Below, in pieces: positions 575 through 60,598 of a stretch of DNA of 64,000 bases. A model generated the notes under the pieces. It ran no database searches and was not told the origin of the DNA. It saw only the letters and a list, made by a program, of their open reading frames with translations. The stretch's first letter is position 1. Each line of letters opens with the position of its first letter. The stretch is from a virus: IMG/VR virus record IMGVR_UViG_3300034198_030914, positions 1 through 64,000 of that record; one strand, given 5' to 3'. The position numbers were made by a program, and so were the translations under genes.

Positions 575-1849
575 CTAATATAGTCCATCCAGCTCACCAC
601 CGGTGTCTCTCATTTCATATTCAGCTCCACGCATTACATTTGAAATAGTATTATTTGATTTATTTAAATAGGGGAGACTATCCACAAATGGATAATAATC
701 AAAATTTACCTCATCTAAAGTAACGTAATAAGCAGCACTTTTAGTTTGTGAACCGTTACTAACTTTAAAACCCATGGATGAGCCAGATGTTTTAGAGTCT
801 TGATATACTTTATACCACCAACCATTCCTTTCAGCAAATCTTTTGAACAAATCTATATCCGAATCATAATTTGTGTAAATTCTATCCATAAACATATCTC
901 CTCCATCGGTTTTCCATAGAAGTGCTCTTCCCCTTATCTTATCACTAGCCCACTTTCCATTTTGCAGTTTGCCAAAATTACTATAGAGAATGACCAATTG
1001 GCAAACATCATCATTATACCTATAAATATCAAAATATTCGCTATTTACATCTGCCATACAAGAAAGGCCAAGAGTCGAACTACCTCCATGTTCATATCTT
1101 CGATAATTATACCAATAAGGAATATCTCTTTCTGAAACAATATCAAACTTCAAAAAGGCATCATTCATTATATCAAATGAAGATTTATAAGCATTAACAA
1201 AGTCTTCTAATTCTTTATCTGTAAATTGTATTCCAGCCGCAGTCAAGATACTTCTTATGGCTCTACCAATGTTTATAGGATTTTTAGTAAGTTGCCAAAC
1301 CTTTTCAGCTCTATCATCTCTAACACTCAATGCTTCCCTATCATAAATAGAATAGTTATCACCATTGAATTTAAATAAGACATAGGTTTTACCTGGTGTG
1401 TCTTTAGAGGGTGTCTCTGCAAGAATTTCACCTACTTGTCCTTGATTAGGTTTAACATAATCCATAGTTTCAGGATCGAAACCTAATTCATCAAAAATTA
1501 GTTGATTTATATAATTACCATCTGAATCTTTATTCAGAGTGAATCTTCTGTAAACATGGGTTTGATTTACTTGATATTTCAGAGATTCCTGTCCTAATAT
1601 TTCTTGAGCCTTTTTATCTTGAACAAAGAAAATTTTATCTTTTTCAGGATGTATATCGAAAAAGTTTTGAGATATTGCCAAGTCCCTACCTGTTCTAATA
1701 ACTTGCAATAATTCTTTTTTTAATCTTGATTCTGTTAAAGAGTCAATTAGATTCTGTAACTTATTAGAAAGAACAAGTTTACTTTCTAATATTAGAGATT
1801 CTAATAGTGAATCCAATTTGAAGTCTAAAAATTTACTTAATTTATTCAT
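575..1849 (-). CDS. Conserved phage protein with SCM / FDIY / GRALLW motifs
   Basis: A 424-residue protein. The N-terminal 60 residues are leucine/serine-rich helix. The second half carries a chain of motifs I recognise from a widespread hypothetical family of large phages: GLSCM (about residue 262), YFDIYRY, LVILYS, GRALLW and MDRIYT, followed by an NGWWYK segment. No catalytic function is known to me; the invariant Ser-Cys and Trp-rich blocks suggest a compact enzyme or binding fold. It ends 140 bases upstream of dnaK and starts one base after the end of the next gene, so 575-2929 reads as one minus-strand operon. The start MNKLSKFLDF weakly resembles the N-terminal tag seen elsewhere in the window. 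Confidence 0.75.
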   Translation of the reverse strand: MNKLSKFLDFKLDSLLESLILESKLVLSNKLQNLIDSLTESRLKKELLQVIRTGRDLAISQNFFDIHPEKDKIFFVQDKKAQEILGQESLKYQVNQTHVYRRFTLNKDSDGNYINQLIFDELGFDPETMDYVKPNQGQVGEILAETPSKDTPGKTYVLFKFNGDNYSIYDREALSVRDDRAEKVWQLTKNPINIGRAIRSILTAAGIQFTDKELEDFVNAYKSSFDIMNDAFLKFDIVSERDIPYWYNYRRYEHGGSSTLGLSCMADVNSEYFDIYRYNDDVCQLVILYSNFGKLQNGKWASDKIRGRALLWKTDGGDMFMDRIYTNYDSDIDLFKRFAERNGWWYKVYQDSKTSGSSMGFKVSNGSQTKSAAYYVTLDEVNFDYYPFVDSLPYLNKSNNTISNVMRGAEYEMRDTGGELDGLY

Positions 1850-5216: not shown

Positions 5217-5253
5217 AAAAAGTGAATAGTTTTAAACTATTCACTTTTTTTTT
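5217..5253. terminator. Bidirectional intrinsic terminator
   Basis: An 11-bp arm GTGAATAGTTT / AAACTATTCAC with one central base (5222-5244), flanked by A5 on the left and T9 on the right, so it can end transcription from both strands. It lies between the end of the plus-strand run and the end of the minus-strand gene at 5237, whose stop codon lies within the hairpin. Confidence 0.85.
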
Positions 5254-5668
5254 CTGAATCTACATATTTATAATCAATGTAGAATAGTTGAGCCGTGGGT
5301 GCCCCTAATGGTGATACACCTTTAGACTTCAATTTTTTATATTCTTCATCCTCTTCTAATCTTTTCTCAACAAAAACTTCATCCTCTAAAATAGAACCTA
5401 ATTTACCATCACGATTTTCTTGTACCACTCTATCCTTCACAGATTTAATTTCTTCATCCGATGCGAAAAATAAATCGTTGGATATGGGTTTAGCGGCGAG
5501 TTTCATAGCCATTGGTAATAAAGTAGTAAACTCTTCAGTTTTGGTTTCTTCTAATATTTGATTCGATTGATTTTCAGCTAACTGAGATATATTCTCTAAT
5601 TGAGAACCAGTTAATCCAATTTTACCAAGAACCCTCTCCCACTTTTCTATAATCTTTTGTTTATCCAT
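5237..5668 (-). CDS. Hypothetical protein downstream of nusG
   Basis: A 143-residue protein starting at the ATG at 5668 (MDKQKIIEKWERVLGKIGL); an upstream TTG at 5677 would add three residues and overlap nusG. Mostly helical and acidic, ending with an aromatic strand APTAQLFYIDYKY and a charged tail. I do not recognise it. It is the last gene of the minus-strand run 5237-7936 and its stop lies in the terminator hairpin. Tight spacing to nusG (one base) suggests co-translation. Confidence 0.65.
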   Translation of the reverse strand: MDKQKIIEKWERVLGKIGLTGSQLENISQLAENQSNQILEETKTEEFTTLLPMAMKLAAKPISNDLFFASDEEIKSVKDRVVQENRDGKLGSILEDEVFVEKRLEEDEEYKKLKSKGVSPLGAPTAQLFYIDYKYVDSEKKSE

Positions 5669-5669
5669 T

Positions 5670-6209
5670 TTAGTCAACTATTTTTATAATTTCATTTAGG
5701 GTTAAGTCAACTGTAGTAGGTCTTCCGAAAATTAGGACTTCTACACGAACCTTACCATTTTCTTCTATTCTATCAATTGTACCTTTGAAATTTTGAAATG
5801 GTCCTGTGATTACCTCAACTCTTTCACCTTTAATTAAAGTTGATTCAACTACTTCTTTAGTTTTTTCTTTCTCAACAATCATTTTATCAATCTCTGATTG
5901 TTTTAGTGGTTGTGCTAAACCTCTAGCATCTTTTAAGACATTAGTTGCCCCATTCGTACCTTTTACTAAGTGTTCTACTTTATCAATAGAATCTGTTTGT
6001 ACAAAAACATAACCGGGATAGAGTATTTGTTCTTTGACAACTTTTTTGCCGTTTTTAACAGAGGCTACCGCTTTTGTTGGTATAAGGAAGTTGAGTTCCA
6101 TATTGTAATATCTCATCATATCAGTTTTGATTCTCTCAGATACTGATTTTTCTCTGTTGTTTTGTACTTTGATTGTGTACCATTTTGTTTTACTTAGTTC
6201 TGCTATCAT
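5670..6209 (-). CDS. nusG: NusG-like transcription elongation/antitermination factor
   Basis: A 179-residue protein with an N-terminal NGN domain (KWYTIKVQNNREKSVSERI at residues 9-27, then LYPGYVFVQTD near 63-73) and a C-terminal KOW domain (KGERVEVITGPFQNFKGTI near 127-145, then RVEVLIFGRPTTVDL). This is the full NusG architecture and length. NusG binds the RNA polymerase clamp and links it to ribosomes or Rho; a phage copy could recruit host polymerase for phage transcripts or block host termination, which is inference. Its ATG overlaps the previous stop as ATGA. It could also be a specialised UpxY/RfaH-like paralogue. Confidence 0.93.
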   Translation of the reverse strand: MIAELSKTKWYTIKVQNNREKSVSERIKTDMMRYYNMELNFLIPTKAVASVKNGKKVVKEQILYPGYVFVQTDSIDKVEHLVKGTNGATNVLKDARGLAQPLKQSEIDKMIVEKEKTKEVVESTLIKGERVEVITGPFQNFKGTIDRIEENGKVRVEVLIFGRPTTVDLTLNEIIKIVD

Positions 6210-7984: not shown

Positions 7985-9508
7985 TTAAAGAACTCTTACA
8001 TACATAGGACAAACAAACTGACTGTTTTCTATTGCCAGTGCGTAATACATCATTAATTGGCACATTCTATCACTTGCTTGTACAAAATAATAAAGATTTT
8101 TTGCTATTAGTAAAGCTTGTAATTTTGAAATCAATCTTGTCTTGGTTCCAAGTTTATCGGTTTTGATTTCTTTACTTTTATCACCTAATTTCCCAATGGC
8201 ATCATTCAAAATTTCGACTTGTGTATTTAATTCATCCTCTGATAAGCTTTCAAAGTATTTATGGTTTGGAATTGGGGGTATTTCGATTTTATATTCTTGC
8301 GATACTTTACTGAAAATAGAATTAATTTCTATAAGAGAAATTTTTCCATGTCTGGAAGTCTTACCTAAAACTTCACCCTGTACGTCCTGTATCTTTTCTT
8401 TACCACCAAAAGTTCTAACTACCATCATAATATCTCTATTTTCAGATTCTAAGTCTGATTTCTGATTCATTAGTATATTAACACCCAACGAATTAGTTGC
8501 TTTGAATGAAGTTCTAACTTTCAAGAAAGAATATCTCGGTCTTTCTGTAACCTTATTTATTAGTAGATTCGCAGACTCAAGGTTTCTTACTTTTTTAAGT
8601 GATACACTCACTATGTCTCTACGCATAAAATTTTCGTCAACTAATTTATTCAATTCTTCAATTGTTTGACAACCCTCTATATCACTAAGTAATTCTTGGA
8701 TTTTTATAGAATTGACAATCCACATATCACTTGGATTCCATTTAGCTGGTTGCATACCCCTTGCCAATTCTACAAATTTTTTTTTAATTGTAGACATAAT
8801 CCCACCAGTGAAACCTACTTGGTGAAATACATACCTCTTTCTATCATCTAAAATAGATTTTTTCCCACCCTTAGAAGTATAAATTTCTCTATATTCGTAT
8901 AGTGCATTTGCAGTTGTCACAAAGGTAGTGCTCCAATTTTTTCTATAATTTTCAAGAATTTCAGGACTCAAATATACTTCTGTCTTGATTATATCTAAAA
9001 GTTCTTCTCTTATATATCCAAGAATATCAAAGAGTAAATCATAATCTTTATCTGTGATGTTTCTTCTTAAATCTTGTCTCAGTGCACAATACAAACATTG
9101 TATTGATTCTACAATTCTTGTTTCTTTACTTCCCAGCGAACTACCACCACTTGAGCCAAACTCAGCCGTTTTTTCTATATCATTGAGTTTATAGACTTTA
9201 TCATCTGTGTTAAAGATTTCTTTGTATCTATTACCTCTGAATAAAAAATCTTTAGCTTTCTCAATGTCATAACTCTTTTTACTACCATCAGTAATACCAT
9301 TAATTATGTCTTCTGGATTATTTATGGCTGATTTTTTTGGTTTACTATCTTTTGGTAAAAAATTGAGATGTCCATCGACATTTTCTGAATCTTCTACTTG
9401 TTGCTTTAACTTTCTAACAAGCACATCACCTCTCAAGCCACCTTCTTCGCTTGATTTTTCTAACTCACCTAAGTTTAGGTTTGCTTCGTGAAATTTTAAT
9501 ATTCTCAT
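7985..9508 (-). CDS. Conserved phage protein, possible PD-(D/E)XK-type nuclease
   Basis: A 507-residue protein. After a hydrophilic N-terminus comes a Gly/Ser stretch (EFGSSGGSSLGSKETRI near 116-132) and ESIQCLYCALRQ. The middle holds KWNPSDMWIVNS (near 250) and, about 40 residues later, VSVSLKKV. An acidic residue followed by a (S/E)xK triplet is the layout of restriction-like folds, so a nuclease is a fair guess and no more. The N-terminus MRILKFHEANLNLGELE is a divergent member of the tag family seen at 19750-19929 and 47766-51814. It has its own promoter-like box at 9513-9525. Confidence 0.6.
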   Translation of the reverse strand: MRILKFHEANLNLGELEKSSEEGGLRGDVLVRKLKQQVEDSENVDGHLNFLPKDSKPKKSAINNPEDIINGITDGSKKSYDIEKAKDFLFRGNRYKEIFNTDDKVYKLNDIEKTAEFGSSGGSSLGSKETRIVESIQCLYCALRQDLRRNITDKDYDLLFDILGYIREELLDIIKTEVYLSPEILENYRKNWSTTFVTTANALYEYREIYTSKGGKKSILDDRKRYVFHQVGFTGGIMSTIKKKFVELARGMQPAKWNPSDMWIVNSIKIQELLSDIEGCQTIEELNKLVDENFMRRDIVSVSLKKVRNLESANLLINKVTERPRYSFLKVRTSFKATNSLGVNILMNQKSDLESENRDIMMVVRTFGGKEKIQDVQGEVLGKTSRHGKISLIEINSIFSKVSQEYKIEIPPIPNHKYFESLSEDELNTQVEILNDAIGKLGDKSKEIKTDKLGTKTRLISKLQALLIAKNLYYFVQASDRMCQLMMYYALAIENSQFVCPMYVRVL

Positions 9509-19711: not shown

Positions 19712-19754
19712 AATAATAAAAAAGACTCACAAATTGTGAGTCTTTTTTATTATT
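19712..19754. terminator. 20-bp-stem bidirectional terminator
   Basis: A perfect 20-bp inverted repeat with loop AAT: the core GACTCACA/TGTGAGTC is flanked by A6 and T6 tracts and matching AATAAT/ATTATT ends. It separates the convergent genes 19300-19701 and 19750-19929 and overlaps the latter's stop codon. Confidence 0.88.
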
Positions 19755-19929
19755 TCCATTTTTTTCTTTCTGCAATTTCAACCGGTAATTCAGAACAAAG
19801 ATTCTGAAGTTCTAATTCTTCCATCATTTCAAGCTCTTCTCTTTCCCAACCATTGTTACAAAGTTGTTGGATCATTTCTTCTTTAGACATTGATGTATGA
19901 AACGATTCAAATTTAATTAGGTATTTCAT
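19750..19929 (-). CDS. Small protein with MKxLxxFExF N-terminal tag
   Basis: A 59-residue acidic helical protein (MKYLIKFESFHTSMSKEEMI...) ending ERKKWK. Its ATG overlaps the upstream stop (ATGA), so it is co-translated with 19926-21071. The first ten residues match the N-termini encoded at 47766, 48985, 49396, 49686, 51167 and 59855. It is barely longer than a tag plus a helix, comparable in style to small internal head proteins. Function unknown. Confidence 0.7.
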   Translation of the reverse strand: MKYLIKFESFHTSMSKEEMIQQLCNNGWEREELEMMEELELQNLCSELPVEIAERKKWK

Positions 19930-21071
19930 TTCTTTTTCTTTCTTTTGTATGCAAATTCTTTATATAAATCCTTTGCTACATTTACATGATTTTTCATCTG
20001 ATTGTGATAATCATCTGTTGGAGCGGCTTTACTATTAGGGTAAAGTCTTTGTGTCATATTGTTCCATTTTGTGAATGGTAAGACAGAACTTTCTAATCCT
20101 GGTGTTTGATGGGAAGTTTCAGTAAAACTCTCTACATCTGTTATCTCTTTTTTGAAGTCAGTTTTCACCACCGCTTTAGGATCTGTAGTCTGATAATATT
20201 TTAAGGAAATATATTTAGACAATTCTGTATCTTCATTAGTGATATCACTGAATAGTTGTATTATGCTTCTAGATGTCTTAGGATCATCATCAGACATCCC
20301 ATAAGTAACTCTAATAGTTCTGTTCATAATTGACTCAAGTTGTTTAGCAAATTCAAAACACTTGTTAATTGAATACAATAATCCCTGTTTTTTGCTTTCT
20401 TCTGGAGCTTGAACACTACCACCACTGAACTTTTTTGCAAAACTATCTGAGCTCACACCAAAGTAGTCACAATGATTAAGATATTCTTGCACTAAAGGAT
20501 TTTGTGAAGGAGTGCTACCGATTTTGTATTGTTCACCACCTTGACCTTCAAACCAATATTTGAACTTTTTTAGATTTTGAAACATTTCATCAACCATCGT
20601 CATACCACTCACTGAACCAGGTCTCGAAGCTAAAACATTATCAATTACATATTCAACACCTTGTCTAATAGATTCAGGTTTGTGACCGCGTGCTGTAACT
20701 ATCGAAAATATACCACCTTCTGATAGACATTTGAGGAATTTTTCAAAGGCAGGACCAAAGTGCCCCTCCTGTATACAATGTTCAACATCCTCTATAAATG
20801 CTGAGTCACCTCTCGATCCAGTATCTCTGAATTCGGAAAAAGCTTCAGCAGCACTGTTGTTTCGAATTCTGTAATTCTCAACATCTGTCCTGACTTTGGC
20901 AAATTCAGCGGTAGATACCTCGATCGGCAACCAATTATCTCCAACTTTCTGATCCATCAATATCTTAGTTGGCATATCTAATATATTGTCATCCCAGTCG
21001 AATGCCCAATATCTCAGCGTTATAGTTTCATAATCTGAATTTTCATTTAGTCTTTTAAATCTACGATTCAT
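19926..21071 (-). CDS. HAD-like phosphohydrolase-type phage protein
   Basis: A 381-residue protein. YWAFDWDDNILDMPTKI (21-37) carries the HAD motif I pattern DxDxN/T, and SIVTARGHKPESI (about 123-135) looks like HAD motif II (S/T). A later SGGSVQAPEESKKQG segment may supply the Lys region. The FDWDDNIL plus STAEFA pattern is one I associate with conserved T4-like hypothetical proteins. The substrate is unknown: a nucleotide or DNA end phosphatase are both possible. The N-terminus MNRRFKRLNE is a weak match to the tag family. Confidence 0.65.
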   Translation of the reverse strand: MNRRFKRLNENSDYETITLRYWAFDWDDNILDMPTKILMDQKVGDNWLPIEVSTAEFAKVRTDVENYRIRNNSAAEAFSEFRDTGSRGDSAFIEDVEHCIQEGHFGPAFEKFLKCLSEGGIFSIVTARGHKPESIRQGVEYVIDNVLASRPGSVSGMTMVDEMFQNLKKFKYWFEGQGGEQYKIGSTPSQNPLVQEYLNHCDYFGVSSDSFAKKFSGGSVQAPEESKKQGLLYSINKCFEFAKQLESIMNRTIRVTYGMSDDDPKTSRSIIQLFSDITNEDTELSKYISLKYYQTTDPKAVVKTDFKKEITDVESFTETSHQTPGLESSVLPFTKWNNMTQRLYPNSKAAPTDDYHNQMKNHVNVAKDLYKEFAYKRKKKK

Positions 21072-36984: not shown

Positions 36985-38478
36985 TTAAAAAGTTGTCACA
37001 TTTCCATATTTGTCTAGTTTAGTGACTTGACTAGTTGGTATCACCTTGTAATCCTGTTCAGGTTCTTTCATTTTGCTCTCAGTAGCATCACCCCATTTGA
37101 GATTTATATTAAAGACAACTCCAGATAAGTCAGTAATAATTTTATTCTTGAACATATCAATGAATCTAGATCCATTACAACTAGATACCTTACATTCACC
37201 AAAAATATTTGAAATCGATCCAATACCCCCATGCCCACCCGATACGGTGATTTCATCTTGTCCGGTTGATGTATCAGGATCGTAGTAACCCAAATGTTGT
37301 CTGAAATTATCCAATAAACTAGTCATATATACACCTAAATCGTTAACAACCGCACCACTTTTCAATATAGGTAATTGTTGTATTTCGGACATTTTTTTGT
37401 ATGAACAAACTTGTAATGTACCTCCATATTGTAGTAGTATAAAATCAGGTTCTTGAGAAATTAATCCATCTTGAAAATCCTTTTCAATTATAGACCTAGC
37501 TCTTAAAGCGTTTGCCCAAGTTCCAGTAGGTACAAAGGCTAATTTACCAACTATTTGATAGCCAGGTAATTTTATTTTTGTTCCTTGTTGAAAGTCTCCC
37601 AAAAATTCTGCTTGACTCTTATAAATCTTTTTCATCTTCATTATTTCCCCAGTCTCTGTTTCAACGTCTGAGTATTCACCTCTAGTCATCTTTTGCATTT
37701 TAGCTAACCTACCTTGAGCATCTGTTCTAAAATCAACAATTTCCCCAGCCATCGGTCCTCTTTTAGGAATGTTGTGATAGGGTGATACTTTAGACATTAC
37801 ATTATAGATTGAGTAAATTGAAACGTCTTTACAATTGTCAATTACTGAAATAATTGTTTTAGTATCGCTTCTTTTTAGGAACTGGTTAAAGGCAGCAGCG
37901 AATTCTAATCTTACTTTTGGAGACTTCTTTATTTCAGATAAATTGAAATCCAAAAGTCTCTGCCAAGACACACCATACTCAGTATATTTTGCTGCGTCAA
38001 TCATTTTTATTACCGATGCAACTAAATCATCTTGTGGTGTACCTAAAGCTAAACACACTGCTTCATAAGCTGAATCAGATTTGATTTTCTGTACAGGTTT
38101 ATCTCTATACTTCAATTTATCCTCTTCACTGAAAAGTCCGTGGTGATCTAAGTAGTAATCAACTAATTCATCTCTTTCATCACCAGGCATATTTGCAAAG
38201 TCCAAAACAACATTAATTAGTGTTGGATCTAGAGTTGTGTATTTCCAACCATCTGAATAATTTAAGATGCCATATTTTACAATTGTAAATCCTTTGTTTA
38301 GGAGCCACTTTTTCATTTCTAACGCGCTGAAAATACCATCTAGATCATCGTGGGTGTATAAAGCTACATTTTTACCACTCTTACCTTTAGCTTTCCAGTA
38401 TGATTCCGATACAGGCATTCTAGCAGCAGCCTCTTCTTCTTGAATTAAGTAGAATTTACCAAATTTTTTTATTTCCAT
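36985..38478 (-). CDS. DHH-family phosphoesterase (RecJ/NrnA-like)
   Basis: A 497-residue protein. LYTHDDLDGIFSALEMKKW (about 39-57) is DHH motif I with two Asp ligands, VVLDFANMP is motif II and YYLDHHG (about 107-113) is the DHH motif itself. A C-terminal TVSGGHGGIGSI corresponds to the GGH motif of DHHA1 domains. Such enzymes are 5'-3' ssDNA exonucleases, nanoRNases or cyclic-dinucleotide phosphodiesterases. In a phage, RNA or DNA end degradation or turnover of signalling dinucleotides are all possible; the sequence does not decide. Confidence 0.85.
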   Translation of the reverse strand: MEIKKFGKFYLIQEEEAAARMPVSESYWKAKGKSGKNVALYTHDDLDGIFSALEMKKWLLNKGFTIVKYGILNYSDGWKYTTLDPTLINVVLDFANMPGDERDELVDYYLDHHGLFSEEDKLKYRDKPVQKIKSDSAYEAVCLALGTPQDDLVASVIKMIDAAKYTEYGVSWQRLLDFNLSEIKKSPKVRLEFAAAFNQFLKRSDTKTIISVIDNCKDVSIYSIYNVMSKVSPYHNIPKRGPMAGEIVDFRTDAQGRLAKMQKMTRGEYSDVETETGEIMKMKKIYKSQAEFLGDFQQGTKIKLPGYQIVGKLAFVPTGTWANALRARSIIEKDFQDGLISQEPDFILLQYGGTLQVCSYKKMSEIQQLPILKSGAVVNDLGVYMTSLLDNFRQHLGYYDPDTSTGQDEITVSGGHGGIGSISNIFGECKVSSCNGSRFIDMFKNKIITDLSGVVFNINLKWGDATESKMKEPEQDYKVIPTSQVTKLDKYGNVTTF

Positions 38479-46558: not shown

Positions 46559-47785
46559 ATGATTGAATTTACCAAACTACTAAAGAATGTAGAAAAACTA
46601 CAAGAACTCGGATTTAATAGTGAATTTGATATAAGTCCCTTTTTACTACCAGTTGATGATGTTATAAAGAAAATTTTAAAGCAAAAAAATCCAAAATTTT
46701 CCGCGATAGAAATTGATTTAATAGTCGATTCTGAAGATATATCTCTGAGTAAATCAATAGCTAAAATTGATGAAGAGTTTAAAAAAAAGAGATCTAGTAA
46801 TTTGAATTTAACACCTGAAGAAAAAAAGGCAAGAAAGGAACAGTTAAATACCGAAAAAGAAAGGCGTAAACAAGCAGCGACAGAACAAGTTAAACAAATA
46901 AAAAATATTTATAAAGATAAAATTGTTGAGTTGAAATCTGAAGCTAAAAAGACTATCAAAGAAATAAAGATAGGTTCCTACAATTTTATAAGAGAGACTA
47001 AAACAATCGTCAAGAAGTCAACTACATCTCTAATTCAAGCTGGTTCATCTTTAGGAGCTATATCCGTAATCATAGCTGCTCCACCTTGGAATATACCTTT
47101 AGCAATTTCATATACGATGTCAATAGTTGATATATTATTATCTTTAGTATCTCAATTAAAAAATATTATATCATATACTGTAGTTTTTGAAAAACTAAAT
47201 CTTATCGTGGATTCAAAAAATCTTTCGATTCTATCAATAATTTTTAACTCATTTATGAATATAATTTTAGGTATCTGGTCAAAATTAACTGGAATAGAAA
47301 GTTTAGTAAAAAAATTATTAGATTTCATAATTAAACTGATAAGTGGTGCAAACAAACAGAAGATTTTTAAAAAAGTGACTAGTAAACTTAGAAAACTGGG
47401 AAATTTCAAGGATGAGAATAAAACATTTGTAATAGATGGTGTAAGTGTAAGGGCTAATAGTGAAGATGATGCAATAGAAGTCAAAGATTTTTTAGAAACA
47501 TATAAAGTTGACTATGGTAAAAAGAAAGTCAGTGATTACAAAAATAACTCTGATAGTTCAATAAACCCAGAGCAGTTATTAACACAGCTATCGAATGATA
47601 TCAATAGGACTCAAGAAATCGAAATACCTAGTGAGGTGGAAGATAGTTATATCAATCTATATGAGGTAAAATTACCAAACGGTACAATCTTAATTAATCA
47701 GACTGAAAAAGACTTAGAAGATTTACAGAGTGCTTATAATTTGGTTATCCAGAAAATTGATAATATTACAGTCGATCAAACTTAG
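46559..47785 (+). CDS. Hypothetical protein with central hydrophobic domain
   Basis: A 408-residue protein. Residues 60-155 are Lys/Glu-rich coiled coil. Residues about 160-285 are hydrophobic (SLGAISVIIAAPPWNIPLAI, SILSIIFNSFMNIILGIW), enough for several membrane helices. The C-terminal part is soluble and acidic. It could be a virion or membrane-associated structural protein; I recognise no family. An ATATATATA box precedes the ATG. Its end overlaps the convergent metalloprotease-like gene by 20 bases. Confidence 0.55.
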   Translation: MIEFTKLLKNVEKLQELGFNSEFDISPFLLPVDDVIKKILKQKNPKFSAIEIDLIVDSEDISLSKSIAKIDEEFKKKRSSNLNLTPEEKKARKEQLNTEKERRKQAATEQVKQIKNIYKDKIVELKSEAKKTIKEIKIGSYNFIRETKTIVKKSTTSLIQAGSSLGAISVIIAAPPWNIPLAISYTMSIVDILLSLVSQLKNIISYTVVFEKLNLIVDSKNLSILSIIFNSFMNIILGIWSKLTGIESLVKKLLDFIIKLISGANKQKIFKKVTSKLRKLGNFKDENKTFVIDGVSVRANSEDDAIEVKDFLETYKVDYGKKKVSDYKNNSDSSINPEQLLTQLSNDINRTQEIEIPSEVEDSYINLYEVKLPNGTILINQTEKDLEDLQSAYNLVIQKIDNITVDQT

Positions 47786-48668
47786 ACTTAAATTCATCAA
47801 CAATATTTTTGATGACTTCCTCCTCTTCATTCCTTCTGAGTTTGGAAATATATCGTTGTTTGATGAACCACTGTCTAACAATATCTTCAAATTTAACTGA
47901 TTTGTCCCTAACTCTTTTTAAATCAAATAATCTTTTGAATCCAACAACTTGTGCTGGTAATTCATCTGGCAATGTGTAGTAAGTAAATCCAGTCGCATCT
48001 TCATCTCTGTCGAACTCTTCACCATAATACTCTTGCAGAAGATGTTCCATTTCATGAGCTATATCTATATTGAGTTCACCAACCATTTCATATAAGTGTG
48101 GCTTTATGTCCTCTTGGAAATTTCTTTGTATTTCTACTTGGATATCATAGTAAGCGACTCTATCCCCCTTTTCTAGTCTGTAATGACTTCCTGCTGAAGC
48201 ATTGATTCTAAATCCTTTTATTTTCTTATTATGTTGAATTGTTAACTCAACCGAGAATTTTACTGGAAAATCATTAAAAACATATTTATGTGTTGAAAGT
48301 AATTCAGTGTTGTCATCATCCTCGTCTTCATATCCAGCATCCGGCATCCCGTAATAGTACTCGCTCTCATCTTCTACGTCTTTCGGAACTTCCCTAACAA
48401 AGCTTGAACCCACCATTTGAAGTCTTGTTTTAATAGGGCGAGGGGGTATATAATGAAATTTACCACCTTTCATTTTTGGTTTTCTATTAGGATCTGCCGC
48501 CTTTTTGGCTTCAGCATCGGTCAATGCGTGATAAGGAAGTGAGAATCTACCATACGCATTATCCTTAACAAAATAAATAATATCCCTCACTACTGTTTTA
48601 ACTGCTTGAGCACTTCCCCTTTCTTCATTTAGAGAATCAAAATTTTCGAAGGTGAATAAGTATTTCAT
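47766..48668 (-). CDS. Tagged protein with HExxH zinc-metalloprotease motif
   Basis: A 300-residue protein. The N-terminus MKYLFTFENFDSLNEERGSA is the clearest copy of the window's shared tag. The C-terminal domain has DIAHEMEHLLQEYYGE with HEMEH at 205-209, two zinc His plus the catalytic Glu, and PDELPAQVVG with Glu236 as candidate third ligand, the gluzincin-type spacing. The middle is beta-rich. A tag plus protease reads like a head-packaged enzyme released into the host at infection; this is inference. Zinc-protease class likely, substrate unknown. First residues suggest a cleavage near LNEE. Confidence 0.65.
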   Translation of the reverse strand: MKYLFTFENFDSLNEERGSAQAVKTVVRDIIYFVKDNAYGRFSLPYHALTDAEAKKAADPNRKPKMKGGKFHYIPPRPIKTRLQMVGSSFVREVPKDVEDESEYYYGMPDAGYEDEDDDNTELLSTHKYVFNDFPVKFSVELTIQHNKKIKGFRINASAGSHYRLEKGDRVAYYDIQVEIQRNFQEDIKPHLYEMVGELNIDIAHEMEHLLQEYYGEEFDRDEDATGFTYYTLPDELPAQVVGFKRLFDLKRVRDKSVKFEDIVRQWFIKQRYISKLRRNEEEEVIKNIVDEFKSKFDRL

Positions 48669-48670
48669 AA

Positions 48671-49399
48671 TTATAAATATTTTTGTATTGTAGCTGGTTT
48701 ATAAACTGGTATAGACATTTTCCAGATACCTGTTCTCAGACCCGATGGTACTTTATGAAACTGACCTCTCAATCTTCCATTTTGTAAATCTGTTAAGTAA
48801 ACATGAAATTGATTTGCGTATAGACTACTATCTTCAGGATTGTTAAAATAATTTGAATCATTTTCGAAATCATCAAAGTATTGTGAACATCCATTACCCC
48901 AACCGTTTGTCTTCTTCAAGATTCTCAAAATCATATCATAATCATAGTTAGTACCAAAATTTTCAAAGTATTTTAGATGTTTCATTTTTTGATATACAGG
49001 GATTACCTCAACATTTTTTGGTATATTATAGTTTTTTGAAAATGTATATATTTCACCAATGATACTATCTGATTTGATATGATGTTCTTGTCTATTTTTA
49101 AGATTGTCAATACAAGCTTTTGGATTATTTTCGAACCAATACTCAGTTAATTCATAATCATTGTTACCTTCTAAAATCTGATTTAATTTTAAAAAATTAT
49201 TACCTATAAATAAATAACTTTCAAAGTATGGTGAAGTAAGTATTATATTTTCACCATCTTCCATTAGATTTTGAATTTGGCTAATATTAGCAATGTCATC
49301 TAAAAGTGCGAAATCCGTATTTTCAGATTTTATCTTATTGGCTAAAAAACTTTTACCCGATCCAGGCAATCCATGAATCCATATAAATTGTTTTTTCAT
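48671..49399 (-). CDS. P-loop kinase-like domain fused to a tagged domain
   Basis: A 242-residue frame made of two parts. Residues 1-138 are a P-loop kinase-like domain (FIWIHGLPGSGKSFLANKI with Walker A at 9-17). At residue 139 (position 48985) an internal MKHLKYFENFGTNYDYD begins, a full copy of the tag that elsewhere starts proteins, leading a 104-residue domain with QFHVYLTDLQNGRLRGQF. The join QKMKHL looks like two neighbouring genes fused by loss of a stop. Either the fusion is real, or the second part is made separately from ATG 48985. Confidence 0.65.
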   Translation of the reverse strand: MKKQFIWIHGLPGSGKSFLANKIKSENTDFALLDDIANISQIQNLMEDGENIILTSPYFESYLFIGNNFLKLNQILEGNNDYELTEYWFENNPKACIDNLKNRQEHHIKSDSIIGEIYTFSKNYNIPKNVEVIPVYQKMKHLKYFENFGTNYDYDMILRILKKTNGWGNGCSQYFDDFENDSNYFNNPEDSSLYANQFHVYLTDLQNGRLRGQFHKVPSGLRTGIWKMSIPVYKPATIQKYL

Positions 49400-49689
49400 A
49401 TAGATTTCAAATATTGTTTTATCAATTGTGTATCAGAAACAATATCTGTAATTAAATTATCTGATTGTAAAATATTAAGTAACACTTGCTTTATTCTGTT
49501 ATAACCATAGCTAGGATTCCCTTTTTCATCGAAAGAATAATAATAGACATCGCCGTCGATATTTATATAATACCTTTTTCTGCCAAATAAATCTAAATAT
49601 TTGGTATCAAGCTCGATTGGAAATTTAGCCTTTAGATAATCTAATGTAAGTTCTTCCCCAAAATTTTCAAAAAGTCTTAAATGTTTCAT
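49396..49689 (-). CDS. Small tagged protein
   Basis: A 97-residue protein starting MKHLRLFENFGEELTLDYL, a strong tag copy. The rest contains beta strands (RKRYYINIDGDVYYYSFDEK) and a helix (IKQVLLNILQSDN). It overlaps both neighbours by 4 bases (ATGA), so the tagged genes 47766-51107 form a tightly coupled operon. Function unknown. Confidence 0.7.
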   Translation of the reverse strand: MKHLRLFENFGEELTLDYLKAKFPIELDTKYLDLFGRKRYYINIDGDVYYYSFDEKGNPSYGYNRIKQVLLNILQSDNLITDIVSDTQLIKQYLKSI

Positions 49690-51107
49690 CTTTCAGATTC
49701 TTTCATTTTTTCAGTTACTAAATAATTAAAATTGTCAGCTGGTTCAAATTTATAAGAAGCGGATAATTTGCTGCTCAGCTCAGAACCAGTAAACTTTACC
49801 GTTATTATACAATCAATAAGAGGATTCTCATCTAACTCAACAAGAACTTTGAATTTAAAGTTATTATCTTCTAATTCATCAGAATCTATTAATCTAACAT
49901 GATAATCAAATTTAACAATAATAGAATCGTAAAATTCTCTAAAAAATTCCCTTGATGGTAGTAGATTAAACGAATTTCCTTTGTTGCCTAAATAATAAAT
50001 ATCCCTCTCAACACAACCCATTTTTTCAACGATGTTTTTAATTAATTTCATCTTGATGTTACCAGAAACAGATTTCATACCATCTTTCAATTTTTTAACA
50101 TCAGATTTATTTGTCTTTAGAATTGATTGTGTCAAGATGTGTTCCAAAATTTTAGAATTTAAAAGAAAATTCTTCTTTTCGTTCCATTCCTTCACCGCCT
50201 TATCGACTGATGCGAAATATCTTTCTTTATTATCCCAAACTTCATCCAAAAAGTCAGAGAAGTAAACAATATTTTTATCAAAATCTTTGAAATACTCACC
50301 CAAGTTTTTGAACTTAGGATCTTGATGTTTTATTTCAAAGTAATCAAACCAAGTGATATCACCCAATCTACTCGGTTGAATAAATTTTTCAAACTGAGCT
50401 TGTATCATTTCGTTTGAATTATCATAAATAATTCTTACCCAGTTCTGAACTAGCTTATTCCATTTCTTTAACATTTCTTCTCCGTACAAACGTTCTACCT
50501 CGCTTCCGATTAAATCATCAGCTAGTGTAAGAAATGAAGAAGTCTTAGTGGTGCTTAAATTTTTATTTAGATAGAATCCGAATTGTTTACCATCTTCAGT
50601 TTCGATTACTATATCTTCGCCAACCTCTTTACTTTTATTCGGTCCAATCCAATATATCTTTCTAATTAAATCAGATTCTAATTTTTCGGTCATTAGGAGT
50701 TTGTCTACAATGTTTCTGGCTGTGATTCTAGCACTGTTCAAAATACTCCAATCTTCGTCTATAGAAAACTCAACCTCTTCGAATATACCATTTATTTTTG
50801 AGATTTCTACGTCCTCTACAAATTTATCATTTTCAAGTTTACCTAAACAAAGTCTATTTTTAGCCATCAATAAATTTTTCAAATCAGTAAGAAAAACTTG
50901 TGAGTTCTCGGAGTATCTTGCTTTTAATCCCCTGTCTAAAATATTATCTAAGAATTCGTTGTTCAATAAAATCATAGACACACAAATTTCTGATACTAAA
51001 TTTGTAGGTTTGTAAATACTTTTAGGTTTTTGTATTTCATTTTGTGCTTGTACTTTATTTACAAATGAGGACTCTCTGAATAGTTGAAAGCTTTTGAAAA
51101 GTTTCAT
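49686..51107 (-). CDS. Tagged large protein, possible nuclease fold
   Basis: A 473-residue protein starting MKLFKSFQLFRESSF, a tag variant. A central block reads IYWIGPNKSKEVGEDIVIET followed by DGKQFGFYLNKNLST, similar in layout to restriction-like folds where an acidic strand precedes an (S/N)xK strand; 7985-9508 has a comparable block. The rest is helical and unrecognised. First gene of the tagged operon, with the symmetric AT box at 51126 shared with the divergent tagged gene at 51167. Nuclease idea is tentative. Confidence 0.55.
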   Translation of the reverse strand: MKLFKSFQLFRESSFVNKVQAQNEIQKPKSIYKPTNLVSEICVSMILLNNEFLDNILDRGLKARYSENSQVFLTDLKNLLMAKNRLCLGKLENDKFVEDVEISKINGIFEEVEFSIDEDWSILNSARITARNIVDKLLMTEKLESDLIRKIYWIGPNKSKEVGEDIVIETEDGKQFGFYLNKNLSTTKTSSFLTLADDLIGSEVERLYGEEMLKKWNKLVQNWVRIIYDNSNEMIQAQFEKFIQPSRLGDITWFDYFEIKHQDPKFKNLGEYFKDFDKNIVYFSDFLDEVWDNKERYFASVDKAVKEWNEKKNFLLNSKILEHILTQSILKTNKSDVKKLKDGMKSVSGNIKMKLIKNIVEKMGCVERDIYYLGNKGNSFNLLPSREFFREFYDSIIVKFDYHVRLIDSDELEDNNFKFKVLVELDENPLIDCIITVKFTGSELSSKLSASYKFEPADNFNYLVTEKMKESER

Positions 51108-51125
51108 TATATTGCTGTTGTTTAA

Positions 51126-51145
51126 TTTTAATATATATATTAAAA
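51126..51145. promoter_or_regulatory. Symmetric AT box between two divergent tagged genes
   Basis: TTTTAATATATATATTAAAA is its own complement, so both strands carry the TTTTAATATATA box seen before many genes. It lies 18 bases from the ATG at 51107 and 21 bases from the ATG at 51167, well placed to fire both ways. Confidence 0.5.
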
Positions 51146-51166
51146 TATTTTAATTGAAAATATAAA

Positions 51167-51814
51167 ATGAAGCACTTAAAAAATTTTAGTAGTTTTTTTG
51201 AATCTTACTTAATAACAGTAGAATATCCAGAAACATCTATTTCAAATTTAGATTTAAATGAATCTTTGAATCTATTCTATGAAAATATTTTAAAATCAAT
51301 TGGCGCAGAAGAATCAGATTTATTTCAATCTTTCAATTTACCAAAAGACGAATACAAAAATAAAGTAAATTTAGATATATTATCCGACAATATTGAATTT
51401 ATAAATTCTTTATCAAGCATAGGGTTGAAAAAATCATTTTTACAGTCCACTGATGATTTAGAAACTTTTGTTAATAAACCTTGTCGCTTCTTAATGATTT
51501 ATAGAATTGAAGCTAATGAGTTAGAAAATCCAGATTATATCTTATTTCAATCTTGGAATGATACACTAGGTAAATGGGAAGATACTAAACTTTATAAAAT
51601 TACTGGGAATATAAAAAGTTTTTATGACAAATTATCCTCTAAGGTAATTGAAATTATACACGATGATGAAAGTTATATTTATCAATCATCAAACAAAAAT
51701 GAATGGGAATTACAGAACTTAGATAGGGCAAATGACACTTTCAAAAAATATTTTAGGAAAGAAGAATTTGAAAAATTTATTAATGATAATAAATTTACCT
51801 TCGACATTAAATAA
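51167..51814 (+). CDS. Tagged protein, unknown function
   Basis: A 215-residue protein starting MKHLKNFSSFFESYLITVEY, another tag copy, here on the opposite strand. Followed by an acidic helical region (NLDLNESLNLFYENILKSIG) and a beta-rich C-terminal half (CRFLMIYRIEANELENPDYI, LFQSWNDTLGKWEDT). No known fold recognised. It overlaps the convergent J-domain gene by 8 bases. Confidence 0.65.
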   Translation: MKHLKNFSSFFESYLITVEYPETSISNLDLNESLNLFYENILKSIGAEESDLFQSFNLPKDEYKNKVNLDILSDNIEFINSLSSIGLKKSFLQSTDDLETFVNKPCRFLMIYRIEANELENPDYILFQSWNDTLGKWEDTKLYKITGNIKSFYDKLSSKVIEIIHDDESYIYQSSNKNEWELQNLDRANDTFKKYFRKEEFEKFINDNKFTFDIK

Positions 51815-53694: not shown

Positions 53695-55413
53695 ATGAAC
53701 TTAACGGAAATAAGTTTTGGTACTTTAAAAGCTCAAATAGAATTATATTTAAGGCAAGAATTTTCTAAAACTGGTGTCAATTTCGACACAAGCTCACCCT
53801 ATGGACAAATACTGCTGGTTTTAGAAAATTTATTTCAACTTTCTATGTTGTATTTGAAAAATTCAATAAACCAATTCGACTTATCATCTTCAAATTCAAA
53901 CAACACCAGAGTTATTAGAAATGCGGCAATTTTCGCTGGTCATAACCCAACAAGGAGTATAAGTGCCACCGGTACTCTCAAAGTCAATATAAAAACCTCT
54001 ACTGATATAAGAACTGATATCCCAGGTGGAAGAATCACACTTTCAAATAGACAATTACTTAAAAATAAAACGAATGGGCTTTTCTATTCGATAAATTTAG
54101 GTTCTGAAAGAATAACCTACAATTTAACAAATATGACAAGTTTTACAATTGACATAATACAAGGTGAATGGCAAAGAAGAAATTTCACTGGATCCGGAAA
54201 CGAAAACCAAACTTATCAAATTACAGTCAGGGGAAATAATAGAGAAATAGAAAACTTCAACTATGAAGTACTCGTCAACGGTGAGTATTGGTCTGTGAAA
54301 AAACATATTTACGAACTCCTACCGGATGAGAAAGCTTGTGTTATTAAATCAAGTTTCAATAAAGGTATAGATTTAATTTTTGGTAATGGTGGGTTCGGCG
54401 CAAAACCTACTGTTGGGTCTTCAATAGAAGTTAATTATCTAGTGAGTGATGGCTCATCAGGTTCTATTTTCAGAAGAACAATAAATGATTGGAATTTCGT
54501 AGAAGATGCCCTCGATGGTTTTGGTAACTCGATTGATATGGCTGATTTATTTGATATATCTTTTTTTAATGATATAAATTTTGGTGCCGATAGCGAATCA
54601 ACCGCTTTCACAAAAAATATTTTACCTATTGCTAGTAATAATTTTGTTATTGGTTTACCTCAACAGTTTGCTTACCAAATCAAGAAATTAGGTGTATTTT
54701 CTCATGTAAATGCCTATTCAGAAAACGGCACAGTATTCGTTGCAGCCACCCCAAATATTAAGTTATTCAAAAGCGAAAATGCTGATTACTTTTCAATTGA
54801 TGTAAGAGCATTCGAGTTGGATAATTATGAGAAATCAAAAATTTTAAAGTATCTAAGAACAGGTGGGAATATCTTATTGACATCCAAGGTAGAAATTGTT
54901 TCACCGAATTTATCATTCTACATAATAAATATTTTTATCATCACCTATTCAGATGCTCAAGATAATTCTGTAAACTCGCAAATTTACAATAAAATTTCAG
55001 AATATTTTCTTAATTTTAACAGAATGGATAGAGTTCCGAAAAGTGATATTATTTCAGAAATTTCTTCAATATCTGATATTTATTCCGTCGACATTAGTTT
55101 CCTTAGTAAAAAGAACGAAGATTATCACAAAGCTCAAATCACATTAGATGAGAATAAAAGAAATCAATTTGCTACAAGGGAAGCTCTCAAACTAGACAAG
55201 CCAAATCCAAACTATAATCCAAAAATTACTCCAGGCTTGGATCCAATTTTAGGTGATATTGTCTTTACAGCTCAAGAAATACCTGTTATTAGGGGTGGTT
55301 GGTACGATAGATCTAATGTTTATTACTCTGATAGCATAGAAGACAAAGGATTGAAATCTGTAAATATAATCAAAAAAGGTACAGTAGATGTATCAAAAAA
55401 ACAAAAGATATAA
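53695..55413 (+). CDS. Baseplate wedge protein (gp6/Baseplate_J type)
   Basis: A 572-residue protein. SPYGQILLVLENLFQLSMLYLK (split here as SPYGQILLVLENLF and QLSMLYLK) followed by TRVIRNAAIFAGHNPTRS near 80-97 is the hallmark of gp6/gpJ wedge proteins, as is SATGTLKVNI. The C-terminus contains LGDIVFTAQEIPVIRGGWYD. T4 gp6 forms the inner baseplate ring. Preceded by TTTTATATATA. Followed 4 bases later by a short gene and then a mobile endonuclease. Confidence 0.8.
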   Translation: MNLTEISFGTLKAQIELYLRQEFSKTGVNFDTSSPYGQILLVLENLFQLSMLYLKNSINQFDLSSSNSNNTRVIRNAAIFAGHNPTRSISATGTLKVNIKTSTDIRTDIPGGRITLSNRQLLKNKTNGLFYSINLGSERITYNLTNMTSFTIDIIQGEWQRRNFTGSGNENQTYQITVRGNNREIENFNYEVLVNGEYWSVKKHIYELLPDEKACVIKSSFNKGIDLIFGNGGFGAKPTVGSSIEVNYLVSDGSSGSIFRRTINDWNFVEDALDGFGNSIDMADLFDISFFNDINFGADSESTAFTKNILPIASNNFVIGLPQQFAYQIKKLGVFSHVNAYSENGTVFVAATPNIKLFKSENADYFSIDVRAFELDNYEKSKILKYLRTGGNILLTSKVEIVSPNLSFYIINIFIITYSDAQDNSVNSQIYNKISEYFLNFNRMDRVPKSDIISEISSISDIYSVDISFLSKKNEDYHKAQITLDENKRNQFATREALKLDKPNPNYNPKITPGLDPILGDIVFTAQEIPVIRGGWYDRSNVYYSDSIEDKGLKSVNIIKKGTVDVSKKQKI

Positions 55414-55697: not shown

Positions 55698-57347
55698 ATG
55701 ATTATAACAAAGGAATTAGAAATTAAAGTTCAATGTCCTACATTGAATTATTATAGAACTCTTAACTATGATGTATCAGTTGGTGATGTTATTAAGATAC
55801 CAATCGAACACTTAAAAAAATCCTCAAATTTGAGGGTTTTAGTTTCTTGTGATTCTTGTTTTATAGAAAAGGAATGTTTTTATAACGCGTATAATAAACA
55901 AGTTCAAAAATCCGATGATGGTAAATATAGGTGTATAAAGTGTTCAATTCCATATAAAAGTAATAAAAAATGGGGAGTAGATCACTATTCTAAAACTGAT
56001 GATTTTAAGAAAAAGTTTAAAGAAACGTGTGAGTCTAAATATGGTGGACATTTTAATAAATTAGATGACTTTAAGAAAAAAATAGTTAATACGAATGTTG
56101 ATAGATACGGGGTTAATTATCCAATTCAAAAAAAAGAAATAAGAGATAAAATGGAACAAAGTATGTTTCATTTGTATGGATCTACACATTCACTTCATAA
56201 CGAATTTTTAAGAAATAAATCATTAGAAAAAATGATTGAAAAATATGGTTCCGCTTATAGTATGCAAATTCCATCTATAAGAGATAAAATTATATCATCC
56301 TCAAAAATCACAAAAAAAAATATTTTCATAAATAAAAATCCGGACATAATAGAAATAGACTATGAGGAAGGGCTCTATATAGTTAAATGTGAGTCCTGTA
56401 AAAATAATTTTAAAATTACTGGGCATATGTATCATATGCGGAAAAAGTACAACACAACAATATGCACTATATGTAACAATGTTGGCAAATCCGGATCCGA
56501 ATTACAAGTCTATGAGTTCATAAAAGATAACTATAATAATGAAATTTTACAAAATAAAAGAAATATTGTGGATAATATTGAGTTAGATATTTATTTACCT
56601 GATATAAAAATAGCATTTGAATTCAATGGATTATATTGGCACTCTGAGCTGTATAAAGAGAAAAGATATCACCTTAATAAGACAAATATATGTAAAGAGA
56701 AAAATATTGAATTAATTCATATATGGGAAGATGATTGGATGTTCAAAAAGGATATAGTTAAATCAATTATACTAAATAAATTGAAAAAAACATCTAATAA
56801 AATATTTGCCAGAAATTGTAGAATTAAGGAAATATCTGATAATAAATTAATTAGAGAATTTTTAGAAACTAATCACATTCAAGGATTTGTTGGATCGAAA
56901 ATAAAAATTGGACTTTTTTATGAAGATGAATTAGTTAGTTTAATGACATTTGGTCAGTTAAGAATATCTCTTGGACAAAAGAGTGAAGAAGGAACATATG
57001 AATTACTTAGATTTTGTAATAAATTAAATACAACAGTTGTTGGTGGTGCTTCTAAGTTATTTAAGTATTTTTTAGATAAATATATTCCTAATAAAGTTAT
57101 TAGTTATAGTGATTATTCTAGATCTAATGGGAATATGTATTATAAACTTGGATTTAATTTAGAACATAACTCAGAACCAAATTACTTCTATATAATAGAT
57201 GGAATTAGAAGTCACAGATTCAATTTCAGAAAAGATAAGCTAGTTAGAGAAGGAGCTAATCCCGAAATGACAGAATTAGAAATAATGGCAAGTAAAAAAA
57301 TATATAGAATATTCGATTGTGGTACACAAAAATGGATTTTTTATTAA
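55698..57347 (+). CDS. Hef-like mobile endonuclease with KYG repeats and VSR-type domain
   Basis: A 549-residue protein. A Cys-finger segment (VSCDSCFIEKECF, YRCIKCSIPY) opens it. Residues about 90-200 hold five KWGV/KYGG/RYGV/LYGS/KYGS repeats. A second CESCKN...CTICN finger follows. The nuclease core GKSGSELQVYEFI, then ELDIYLPDIKIAFEFNGLYW (acidic-x-x-FEFNG with HSE), resembles VSR-like PD-(D/E)XK enzymes. The remaining 200 residues (RNCRIKEISDNKLIREFLE...) match the C-terminal region of phage Hef-type proteins as I know it. Intact; a parasite inserted after the baseplate wedge genes. Confidence 0.8.
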   Translation: MIITKELEIKVQCPTLNYYRTLNYDVSVGDVIKIPIEHLKKSSNLRVLVSCDSCFIEKECFYNAYNKQVQKSDDGKYRCIKCSIPYKSNKKWGVDHYSKTDDFKKKFKETCESKYGGHFNKLDDFKKKIVNTNVDRYGVNYPIQKKEIRDKMEQSMFHLYGSTHSLHNEFLRNKSLEKMIEKYGSAYSMQIPSIRDKIISSSKITKKNIFINKNPDIIEIDYEEGLYIVKCESCKNNFKITGHMYHMRKKYNTTICTICNNVGKSGSELQVYEFIKDNYNNEILQNKRNIVDNIELDIYLPDIKIAFEFNGLYWHSELYKEKRYHLNKTNICKEKNIELIHIWEDDWMFKKDIVKSIILNKLKKTSNKIFARNCRIKEISDNKLIREFLETNHIQGFVGSKIKIGLFYEDELVSLMTFGQLRISLGQKSEEGTYELLRFCNKLNTTVVGGASKLFKYFLDKYIPNKVISYSDYSRSNGNMYYKLGFNLEHNSEPNYFYIIDGIRSHRFNFRKDKLVREGANPEMTELEIMASKKIYRIFDCGTQKWIFY

Positions 57348-58256: not shown

Positions 58257-58820
58257 TTATTCACCATTAAGATTGTTCAATATAAATTTAACTCTATCTA
58301 CCATGTCAACATCACTCAGATCTATATGCTCTATATTTTCTAATTCCAAATAAGATTTAATCCATCTATCTAATTCATCTATATCATCACTATTGTGATA
58401 TCTTATTCCATCATTTGTTTCAATTTTTTTCATTGGTGGAACATAAAATATCTTATCTATATCATTGATATGTTTCAATATTTCTTTTTGTAGGTGATTT
58501 ATTGTTGCAATATTCTTATTTGATAATTTAGATGGAAATAATTTTCTAAAGTAAAAATAATTTAAAATAGAACTAGAATCACATACAACAAATTCTTTAG
58601 ATTCTAAAAACATCTTTTCTTTATTTAATTGTTTATAGAAAATAACTATTTGGTCTATCGGTGAATTAGGTATTCCGTATTCGGCAATGAAATCCGTACA
58701 AACTTCTCCTACAAATATAGAATTTTCACCAATTTTCTTCAATTCGGTATGCACTTCAGAAGCCAGTGTTGATTTTCCTGATGCGGGTGCACCTAATATT
58801 TGTATTAATTTGCCTTTCAT
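58257..58820 (-). CDS. P-loop NTPase/kinase (AAA_28/NadR-like)
   Basis: A 187-residue protein. KLIQILGAPASGKSTLASEV carries Walker A (8-17). VVCDSSSILNYFYFRKL near 73-89 is a D-S-S motif like the DSP region of nicotinamide-riboside-kinase/AAA_28 proteins, and KIFYVPPMKKIETNDGIRYH follows. Size and motifs fit small phage kinases of the NadR type. With PRPP synthetase at 62776, a role in NAD or nucleotide salvage is an attractive inference. Fossils of a paralogue lie on both sides. Confidence 0.65.
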   Translation of the reverse strand: MKGKLIQILGAPASGKSTLASEVHTELKKIGENSIFVGEVCTDFIAEYGIPNSPIDQIVIFYKQLNKEKMFLESKEFVVCDSSSILNYFYFRKLFPSKLSNKNIATINHLQKEILKHINDIDKIFYVPPMKKIETNDGIRYHNSDDIDELDRWIKSYLELENIEHIDLSDVDMVDRVKFILNNLNGE

Positions 58821-59854: not shown

Positions 59855-60082
59855 ATGAAGAAAATAACTAAATTTGAAAATTATATGGGACAATTAATAA
59901 ACACCACAGATTTAATTAACTATGAACAACAAAGTTCTAGTTCAATTAATTATAATTCTATTCAAAACTCTTCTTGTCCAGAAAGTTTCCCTGTATTAAT
60001 GGAAAATGGAATAATTGTGCGGTACGAATTGGTAAAATTTGCTTCTGAAATTGTATCAGAACAAGGAGTTTCCAACAAATAA
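59855..60082 (+). CDS. Small tagged protein
   Basis: A 75-residue protein starting MKKITKFENYMGQLINTTD, a member of the tag family, then a Ser/Asn-rich segment (YEQQSSSSINYNSIQNSS) and IVRYELVKFASEIVSEQG. Its ATG overlaps the stop of a short upstream frame (ATGA) in phase with the endonuclease gene. It ends 4 bases before the structured element at 60086. Function unknown. Confidence 0.55.
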   Translation: MKKITKFENYMGQLINTTDLINYEQQSSSSINYNSIQNSSCPESFPVLMENGIIVRYELVKFASEIVSEQGVSNK

Positions 60083-60456: not shown

Positions 60457-60598
60457 TTAGAAAGATATCAAAAAAACTTCAGTTATATAAATAGAATTTC
60501 TACCAAGCTTCTTAAGTTCAGTATGAACATCAGAAGCTAAGGTAGATTTTCCACTTGCGGGTGCACCAATAATTGTAATTAATTTAGATTTAGTCATC
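60457..60598 (-). pseudogene. N-terminal fossil of a P-loop kinase paralogue
   Basis: The ATG at 60598 opens KSKLITIIGAPASGKST, nearly the start of the intact kinase at 58257-58820. An extra A at 60541 shifts the frame so that translation ends TFSF-stop. In the next frame the homology continues (ASDVHTELKKLGRNSIYITE) and then disappears. Both a frameshift and a truncation show the gene is dead. Its missing end probably survives at 58108-58229. Confidence 0.8.

Follow-up and report, generated by a model that had tools for sequence, protein, structure and literature searches.

A short N-terminal leader resembling the T4 capsid-targeting sequence on unrelated proteins of a relative of the Mahaphage genomes

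The viral record IMGVR_UViG_3300034198_030914 is 102,219 bases long; its bases 1 to 64,000 (the window) encode a series of proteins whose N-termini resemble one another (here called the tag or leader) and whose bodies do not. The seven N-termini of this kind quoted in the original prediction, which was drawn from the window alone, were all confirmed in the sequence, among them MKYLFTFENF (48668, minus strand) and MKHLRLFENF (49689, minus strand), and the divergent N-terminus at 9508 is also present. The cluster of five such genes within 4 kb exists as described but is only one of many locations, tagged genes being distributed genome-wide. The open reading frames (ORFs) concerned, with lengths in amino acids (aa), are listed below together with one context gene.

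47766–48668, minus strand: tagged protein 1, 300 aa, MKYLFTFENFDSLNEE, with a body carrying an HExxH (DIAHEMEHLL) metalloprotease-like motif
48671–48985, minus strand: tagged protein 2, 104 aa, MKHLKYFENF, counted from an internal ATG
48986–49399, minus strand: P-loop NTPase/kinase-like segment (AAA_33, weak), lineage-specific, upstream of tagged protein 2
49396–49689, minus strand: tagged protein 3, 97 aa, MKHLRLFENFGEELT
49686–51107, minus strand: tagged protein 4, 473 aa, MKLFKSFQLFRES, N-terminus MKLFKSFQLF
51167–51814, plus strand: tagged protein 5, 215 aa, MKHLKNFSSFFES, N-terminus MKHLKNFSSF
19750–19929, minus strand: tagged protein 6, 59 aa, MKYLIKFESF
59855–60082, plus strand: tagged protein 7, 75 aa, MKKITKFENY
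36985–38478, minus strand: tagged DHH-family phosphoesterase, 497 aa, MEIKKFGKFYLIQEEEAA, absent from the original prediction
575–1849, minus strand: tagged protein MNKLSKFLDFKLDSLLES of a family without known function, likewise absent from it
7985–9508, minus strand: divergent member MRILKFHEAN, with a phrog_1462 body of unknown function; the relative in L174 reads MEIIKFSKFFEAN
19926–21071, minus strand: candidate member MNRRFKRLNEN, followed by a HAD-like AFDWDDN motif; a look-alike ORF of LR756501, compared by eye, reads MKKLSNIKNFELFLNEN
53695–55413, plus strand: T4 gp6-like baseplate wedge, untagged (context gene)

Further tagged members lie past the window, at 73086–73439, 73593–74711, 83364–83609, 83613–84875, 88910–89548, 90961–91596 and 91642–92727. 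A TTG start that would have given the 83364–83609 ORF a perfect tag was rejected, the codon being TTA, and the GTG start stands. A search of 50,697 phage records gave no homologue of the HExxH protein, and no phage homologue was found for the 73593–74711 protein. None of the core replication or baseplate proteins recognised in the record is tagged.

Because of its gp6-like baseplate wedge, the phage is placed in the T4 superfamily, as a relative of the 634–735-kb Mahaphage genomes. The Mahaphage clade comprises genomes of 634, 636, 642 and 735 kb together with Lak, and its predicted hosts are Bacteroidetes (PMC7162821). The gp6 is 63% identical to those of LR756502 (642 kb), the closest complete relative, and LR745206 (635 kb), and those of LR756504 and LR756501 (735 kb) are more distant than that of LR756502. 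A second, near-identical record of the same phage in IMG/VR is 139 kb long, and both records are fragments.

Tags were counted in two ways: with a simple pattern (^M[KR].[LIVFY]..[FY]), compared with 300 shuffles of residues 2–16, and with a scoring matrix built on LR756502, in which ORFs scoring at least 5 were taken as tagged. The simple pattern, whose false positives include plainly untagged CoaD-like, Dam-like and SmpB ORFs, marks nine of the 122 ORFs of the 102,219-base record, whereas the shuffles average 0.87 matches and never exceed 4. In the comparison of N-termini across the record, which had been proposed as a check, the matrix also tags 9/122 ORFs where 0.41 are expected (Poisson p about 6e-10). 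The nine bodies show no mutual relation by BLAST, in agreement with the earlier claim of unrelated bodies behind a shared start. The excess is larger in the huge relatives: 163 of 972 ORFs in LR756502 (1.9 expected, matrix) and 44 of 673 in LR756500 (1.5 expected) are tagged, and in LR756504 the simple pattern marks 59 of 930 (6.4 expected), so that tagged ORFs account for up to 17% of those of a genome. The 163 tagged proteins of LR756502 fall into 135 BLAST body clusters, 123 of them singletons, although remote homology between clusters is possible. Since 162 of their 163 leading 30-base sequences are distinct, selection acts at the protein level. Alignment of 143 tagged proteins gave the consensus start MKxLKxYExFE with little conservation beyond it, and that of 100 proteins from LR756501 (first 520 kb, mostly with a shorter form of the tag) and LR756500 gave MxxIxxYxxFxNE. 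Tagged genomes have a G+C content of only 24–33%; by the simple pattern two control phages, crAss001 (34% G+C, Bacteroides; 1/110 ORFs) and the Flavobacterium phage MaF61 (37%; 1/192), are at the chance level.

The likeness to T4 internal proteins, to which the original prediction had pointed, held up on testing. Applied to the T4 genome, the simple pattern finds five ORFs, including ipI, ipII, ipIII and the uncharacterised 61.1. The last of these (L105:18966-19130) is annotated as hypothetical and its start, MKTFKEFIKEDM, fits the capsid-targeting pattern. The three T4 internal proteins, Ip1–3, share only their leader, which packages them, and they block type IV restriction enzymes (PMC12373910). 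In T4, residues 4 and 7 are required for targeting, and residues 8 and 10 for processing (PMC9026906); the tags described here carry a hydrophobic residue at position 4 and an aromatic one at position 7. The correspondence includes the residues at the T4 cut: when T4 M-K-T-Y-Q-E-F-I-A-E-A, cleaved between E and A, is set against M-K-Y-I-K-E-Y-E-E-F-L-L-E-A of LR756500, Y4-F7-I8-E10-A11 aligns with Y7-F10-L11-E13-A14. A stricter pattern, [FY]xx[FY][ILV]xE[AS], is found 30- to 170-fold more often than in shuffles in three huge relatives (17 matches against 0.1 in the first 520 kb of LR756501, 10 against 0.3 in LR756502 and 9 against 0.2 in LR756500). It marks only ipII and ipIII in T4 and has zero matches in an internal control window.

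As the original prediction had noted for the window, the aromatic residues are followed by Glu, and in the relatives this Glu usually precedes Ser or Ala. E[SA] occurs within residues 7–18 of 75 of 154 tagged ORFs of LR756502 against 78 of 803 untagged ones (p=7e-27). Orthologues were collected by IMG/VR scans, which gave 10 loci for the 51167 family and 35 for the DHH family (36985), the phage's own second record being counted in both. In the nine sequences of the 49686 family (eight orthologues) F10 and E12 are invariant, residues 13–31 vary and contain gaps, and invariant residues return with the body. Glu12 is likewise invariant in the 51167 family (11/11), followed by Ser13 in 10/11, and in the DHH family, where leader length varies, the Glu is kept in 27/29 members, usually before Ala or Ser. 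Orthologues overall thus retain the aromatic residues and the Glu before Ala/Ser while the linker varies. The leader also lies outside the fold: AlphaFold models give residues 1–30 of the 49686 protein and 1–36 of the 51167 protein a predicted local distance difference test score (pLDDT) below 50, with folded bodies after them, and the DHH, SET and GluRS domains start past the tag.

A gp21-like prohead protease, which the original prediction had recommended looking for, is encoded by the relatives beside the portal and major head protein. Matches to family S77 were obtained in all four huge relatives searched and in pT24, Lak-B1 and T4; the same search gave no match in MaF61. In LR756502 the region 222545–229167 contains, contiguously, the portal (phrog_213), head maturation protease (phrog_207, 6e-28) and major head protein (phrog_138) genes, and two tagged genes lie immediately upstream of the portal gene.

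The bodies had been described as effector enzymes. This is shown only in part. Recognised domains are that of the DHH phosphoesterase, which starts at residue 38 of the 36985–38478 protein and is found in 24/29 members of its family, and the glutamine amidotransferase domain behind the tag of the 83613–84875 protein. The HExxH of 47766–48668 is no more than a motif, and neither the 49686 nor the 51167 protein matches anything. Nothing significant came from PDB profile searches for the 49686 and DHH families or from Foldseek with models of the 49686 and 51167 proteins. Judged by its family alone, the DHH protein may act on oligonucleotides that signal in host defence. Domains of tagged proteins in the relatives include SET, RNA ligase 1, GNAT, HNH, lysozyme, methyltransferase, PPK2, DeoC and NUDIX. 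In two of these phages GluRS carries a tag-like extension, of 26 residues in LR756501 (L123:13267-14892, where a later start codon is possible) and 45 in LR756504 (L236:3081-4679), so that the class I catalytic domain begins at residues 27 and 46, respectively, after two dissimilar leaders with the endings MKES and LKES; the GluRS of LR756502 has no N-terminal extension. Basic/aromatic N-terminal extensions have been described for huge-phage ribosomal protein S21 (PMC7162821). Four S21 proteins were found and tested as further tagged proteins, and none is tagged.

Two families deserve separate mention. A D-I-L-x-x-L-x-D motif follows the tag in 26 of the 163 tagged ORFs of LR756502, compared with 9 of 678 untagged ones, and the proteins carrying it are a divergent paralogous family of predicted cargo. 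The 575–1849 family has 17 homologous ORFs in LR756502 and LR756501, most with their own differing variant of the tag, and four of those in LR756501 stand in tandem (61904–66169).

The N-terminus at 48985 had been listed as internal, but it is not an internal motif of a kinase. The ORF 48671–49399 (minus strand) consists of the P-loop segment and, from ATG 48985 on, a further 104 residues. Because five relatives (L147, L148, L149, L150 and L189) have these 104 residues as an independent, tagged gene, the ORF is read as an in-frame fusion: in this phage a P-loop ORF has been joined ahead of a tagged gene. The P-loop segment is absent in front of the tagged protein in the relatives compared. The fusion is identical in the 139-kb record.

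The surroundings are those of a T4-superfamily genome. The window encodes a T4 gp5-like hub in addition to the baseplate wedge, both topoisomerase II subunits, a primase and a helicase, and part of a DNA polymerase is encoded past its end in the same record. This ORF (L003 10760-11995, corresponding to record positions 92760–93995, minus strand) covers the C-terminal part only (phrog_262 556–841) and probably represents a split polymerase gene. The product of another ORF (5237–5677, minus strand, 146 aa) resembles only the N-terminal part of the gp23-type major head protein (phrog_138, E 0.007, residues 5–66) and adjoins a NusG-like antiterminator (phrog_6386) at 5670–6209. A homing endonuclease ORF (phrog_3339) lies behind gp6 at 55698–57347, and the ORFs at 58257–58820 and 60457–60597 have a similar P-loop beginning (GAPASGKSTLAS), apparently a repeated gene start.

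Taking together the leader and its excess, the independence of the bodies, the conservation among orthologues, the position outside the fold, the match to T4 and the T4-type head module of the relatives, we consider that the shared N-terminus is probably (we would say about 80%) a T4-type, protease-cleaved capsid-targeting leader serving a greatly expanded head cargo. That it acts as such a leader is well supported; packaging and cleavage of the tagged proteins are inferred. The basic/aromatic leader (M-K-x-L/I-x-x-F/Y-x-x-F/Y) would bind the scaffold core of the prohead during head assembly and so bring any protein to which it is joined inside the head. The S77 prohead protease would then cut after the Glu a few residues downstream, typically between Glu and Ala or Glu and Ser, freeing the cargo, which may be ejected with the DNA into the host and act immediately on defence, RNA or metabolism. 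The novelty lies in the degree and in the cargo, the kind being already known.

Several observations weigh against this interpretation. Tens of tagged species per virion would far exceed the number known from T4. Neither the 102-kb record nor its 139-kb partner, both incomplete, contains an S77 protease, and the Pfam S77 score in LR756502 is under the curated cut-off, although the PHROGs match is clear. Lak and MaF61 are without the tag; in Lak-B1, translated with TAG as Gln, tags are undetectable in spite of a protease, so that the protease alone does not predict the leader. Finally, an E[SA]-type site occurs in residues 7–18 of only 3–4 of the nine tagged proteins here (3 against 0.6 expected), and several tagged proteins of this record would need a later cut, or none.

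This last point bears on the most serious alternative, that the tag does target the head but many of the proteins remain unprocessed, the Glu being part of a core-binding motif and not a cleavage site. It agrees with the behaviour of T4, where Asp at position 10 stops processing yet permits targeting (PMC9026906), with the non-uniform processing of giant-phage head proteins (PMC5694885) and with the lack of a clear site in several tagged proteins of this record. We nevertheless think it unlikely, given that Glu followed by Ala/Ser is conserved across orthologues of three families and that, in LR756502, tagged ORFs have almost nine times the odds of E[SA] that untagged ones have. A second alternative, distinctly less probable, is that the leader sorts proteins elsewhere, for example to the host membrane, a replication compartment or the tail. 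A short basic/aromatic and possibly amphipathic N-terminus on unrelated proteins would suit several kinds of sorting, some LR756502 proteins have a hydrophobic stretch behind the tag (e.g. 56658, 95990, 544849, 580926), and gp6, a baseplate gene, has the tagged pair 49686/51167 nearby in this phage as well as in LR756502. This is opposed by the specificity of the likeness to T4 internal proteins, Glu before Ala/Ser included, by the head protease of the relatives and by the two tagged genes that immediately precede the LR756502 portal gene; T4-type phages are not known to have a compartment signal of such a shape. Ordinary similarity, whether within a paralogous family or from AT-rich starts favouring Lys, Leu and Phe in look-alike first helices, is very improbable: the LR756502 set is partly paralogous (one cluster of 14, besides the D-I-L-x-x-L-x-D proteins) and the tagged genomes are AT-rich, but composition-keeping shuffles give only 0.4–2 matches, crAss001 and MaF61 show no excess, most bodies cluster with no other, the models predict a disordered tag and not a first helix, and orthologues keep it despite variable linkers, so that chance, AT-richness and paralogy were rejected.

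Extending the head-cargo interpretation to the group, we lean slightly towards the view that one T4-type leader allows the huge Bacteroidetes phages of the Mahaphage group to fill their heads in advance with tens to over 100 different proteins, including GluRS, RNA ligase, SET and DHH proteins, and that infection would start with a delivered proteome as well as DNA. The leader would then provide a sequence rule predicting which unknown genes of the largest phages enter the host, a cargo so far invisible because its bodies lack known relatives, and up to 17% of a genome's ORFs could pass from 'hypothetical protein' to 'predicted head cargo'. It would point towards early counter-defence and takeover enzymes and would widen the T4 leader, known from few proteins, into a general giant-phage delivery system, which may be useful for protein delivery. 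Among the papers found with the phrase 'capsid targeting sequence', none concerns huge phages by title or abstract, which is not proof of novelty.

The closest known system is that of T4 IPI, IPII and IPIII, with an N-terminal leader of 10–19 residues on unrelated bodies (PMC12373910, PMC9026906), a hydrophobic or aromatic residue 4 and an aromatic residue 7, all as here; its Glu then Ala at the cut has a clear counterpart in the relatives and orthologues, and the portal, protease and major head protein of the relatives are also of T4 type. The differences lie in number, since a genome here can have from tens to over 150 tagged ORFs against three in T4 (at least 10 internal proteins have been reported across related phages; PMC12373910), in the leader, which is usually longer here and has a second aromatic residue, and in the cargo, which includes enzymes with known domains. 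In phage P1, the N-terminal 30 residues of DarB suffice to send a foreign protein into the head; the Dar N-termini, compared here by description only, differ in having no common consensus (PMC9024508). The propeptides of the phiKZ and SPN3US ejection proteins are cut after x-x-E by a homologous prohead protease, as proposed here, but they are mostly longer than 100 residues and share no common short tag (PMC5694885).

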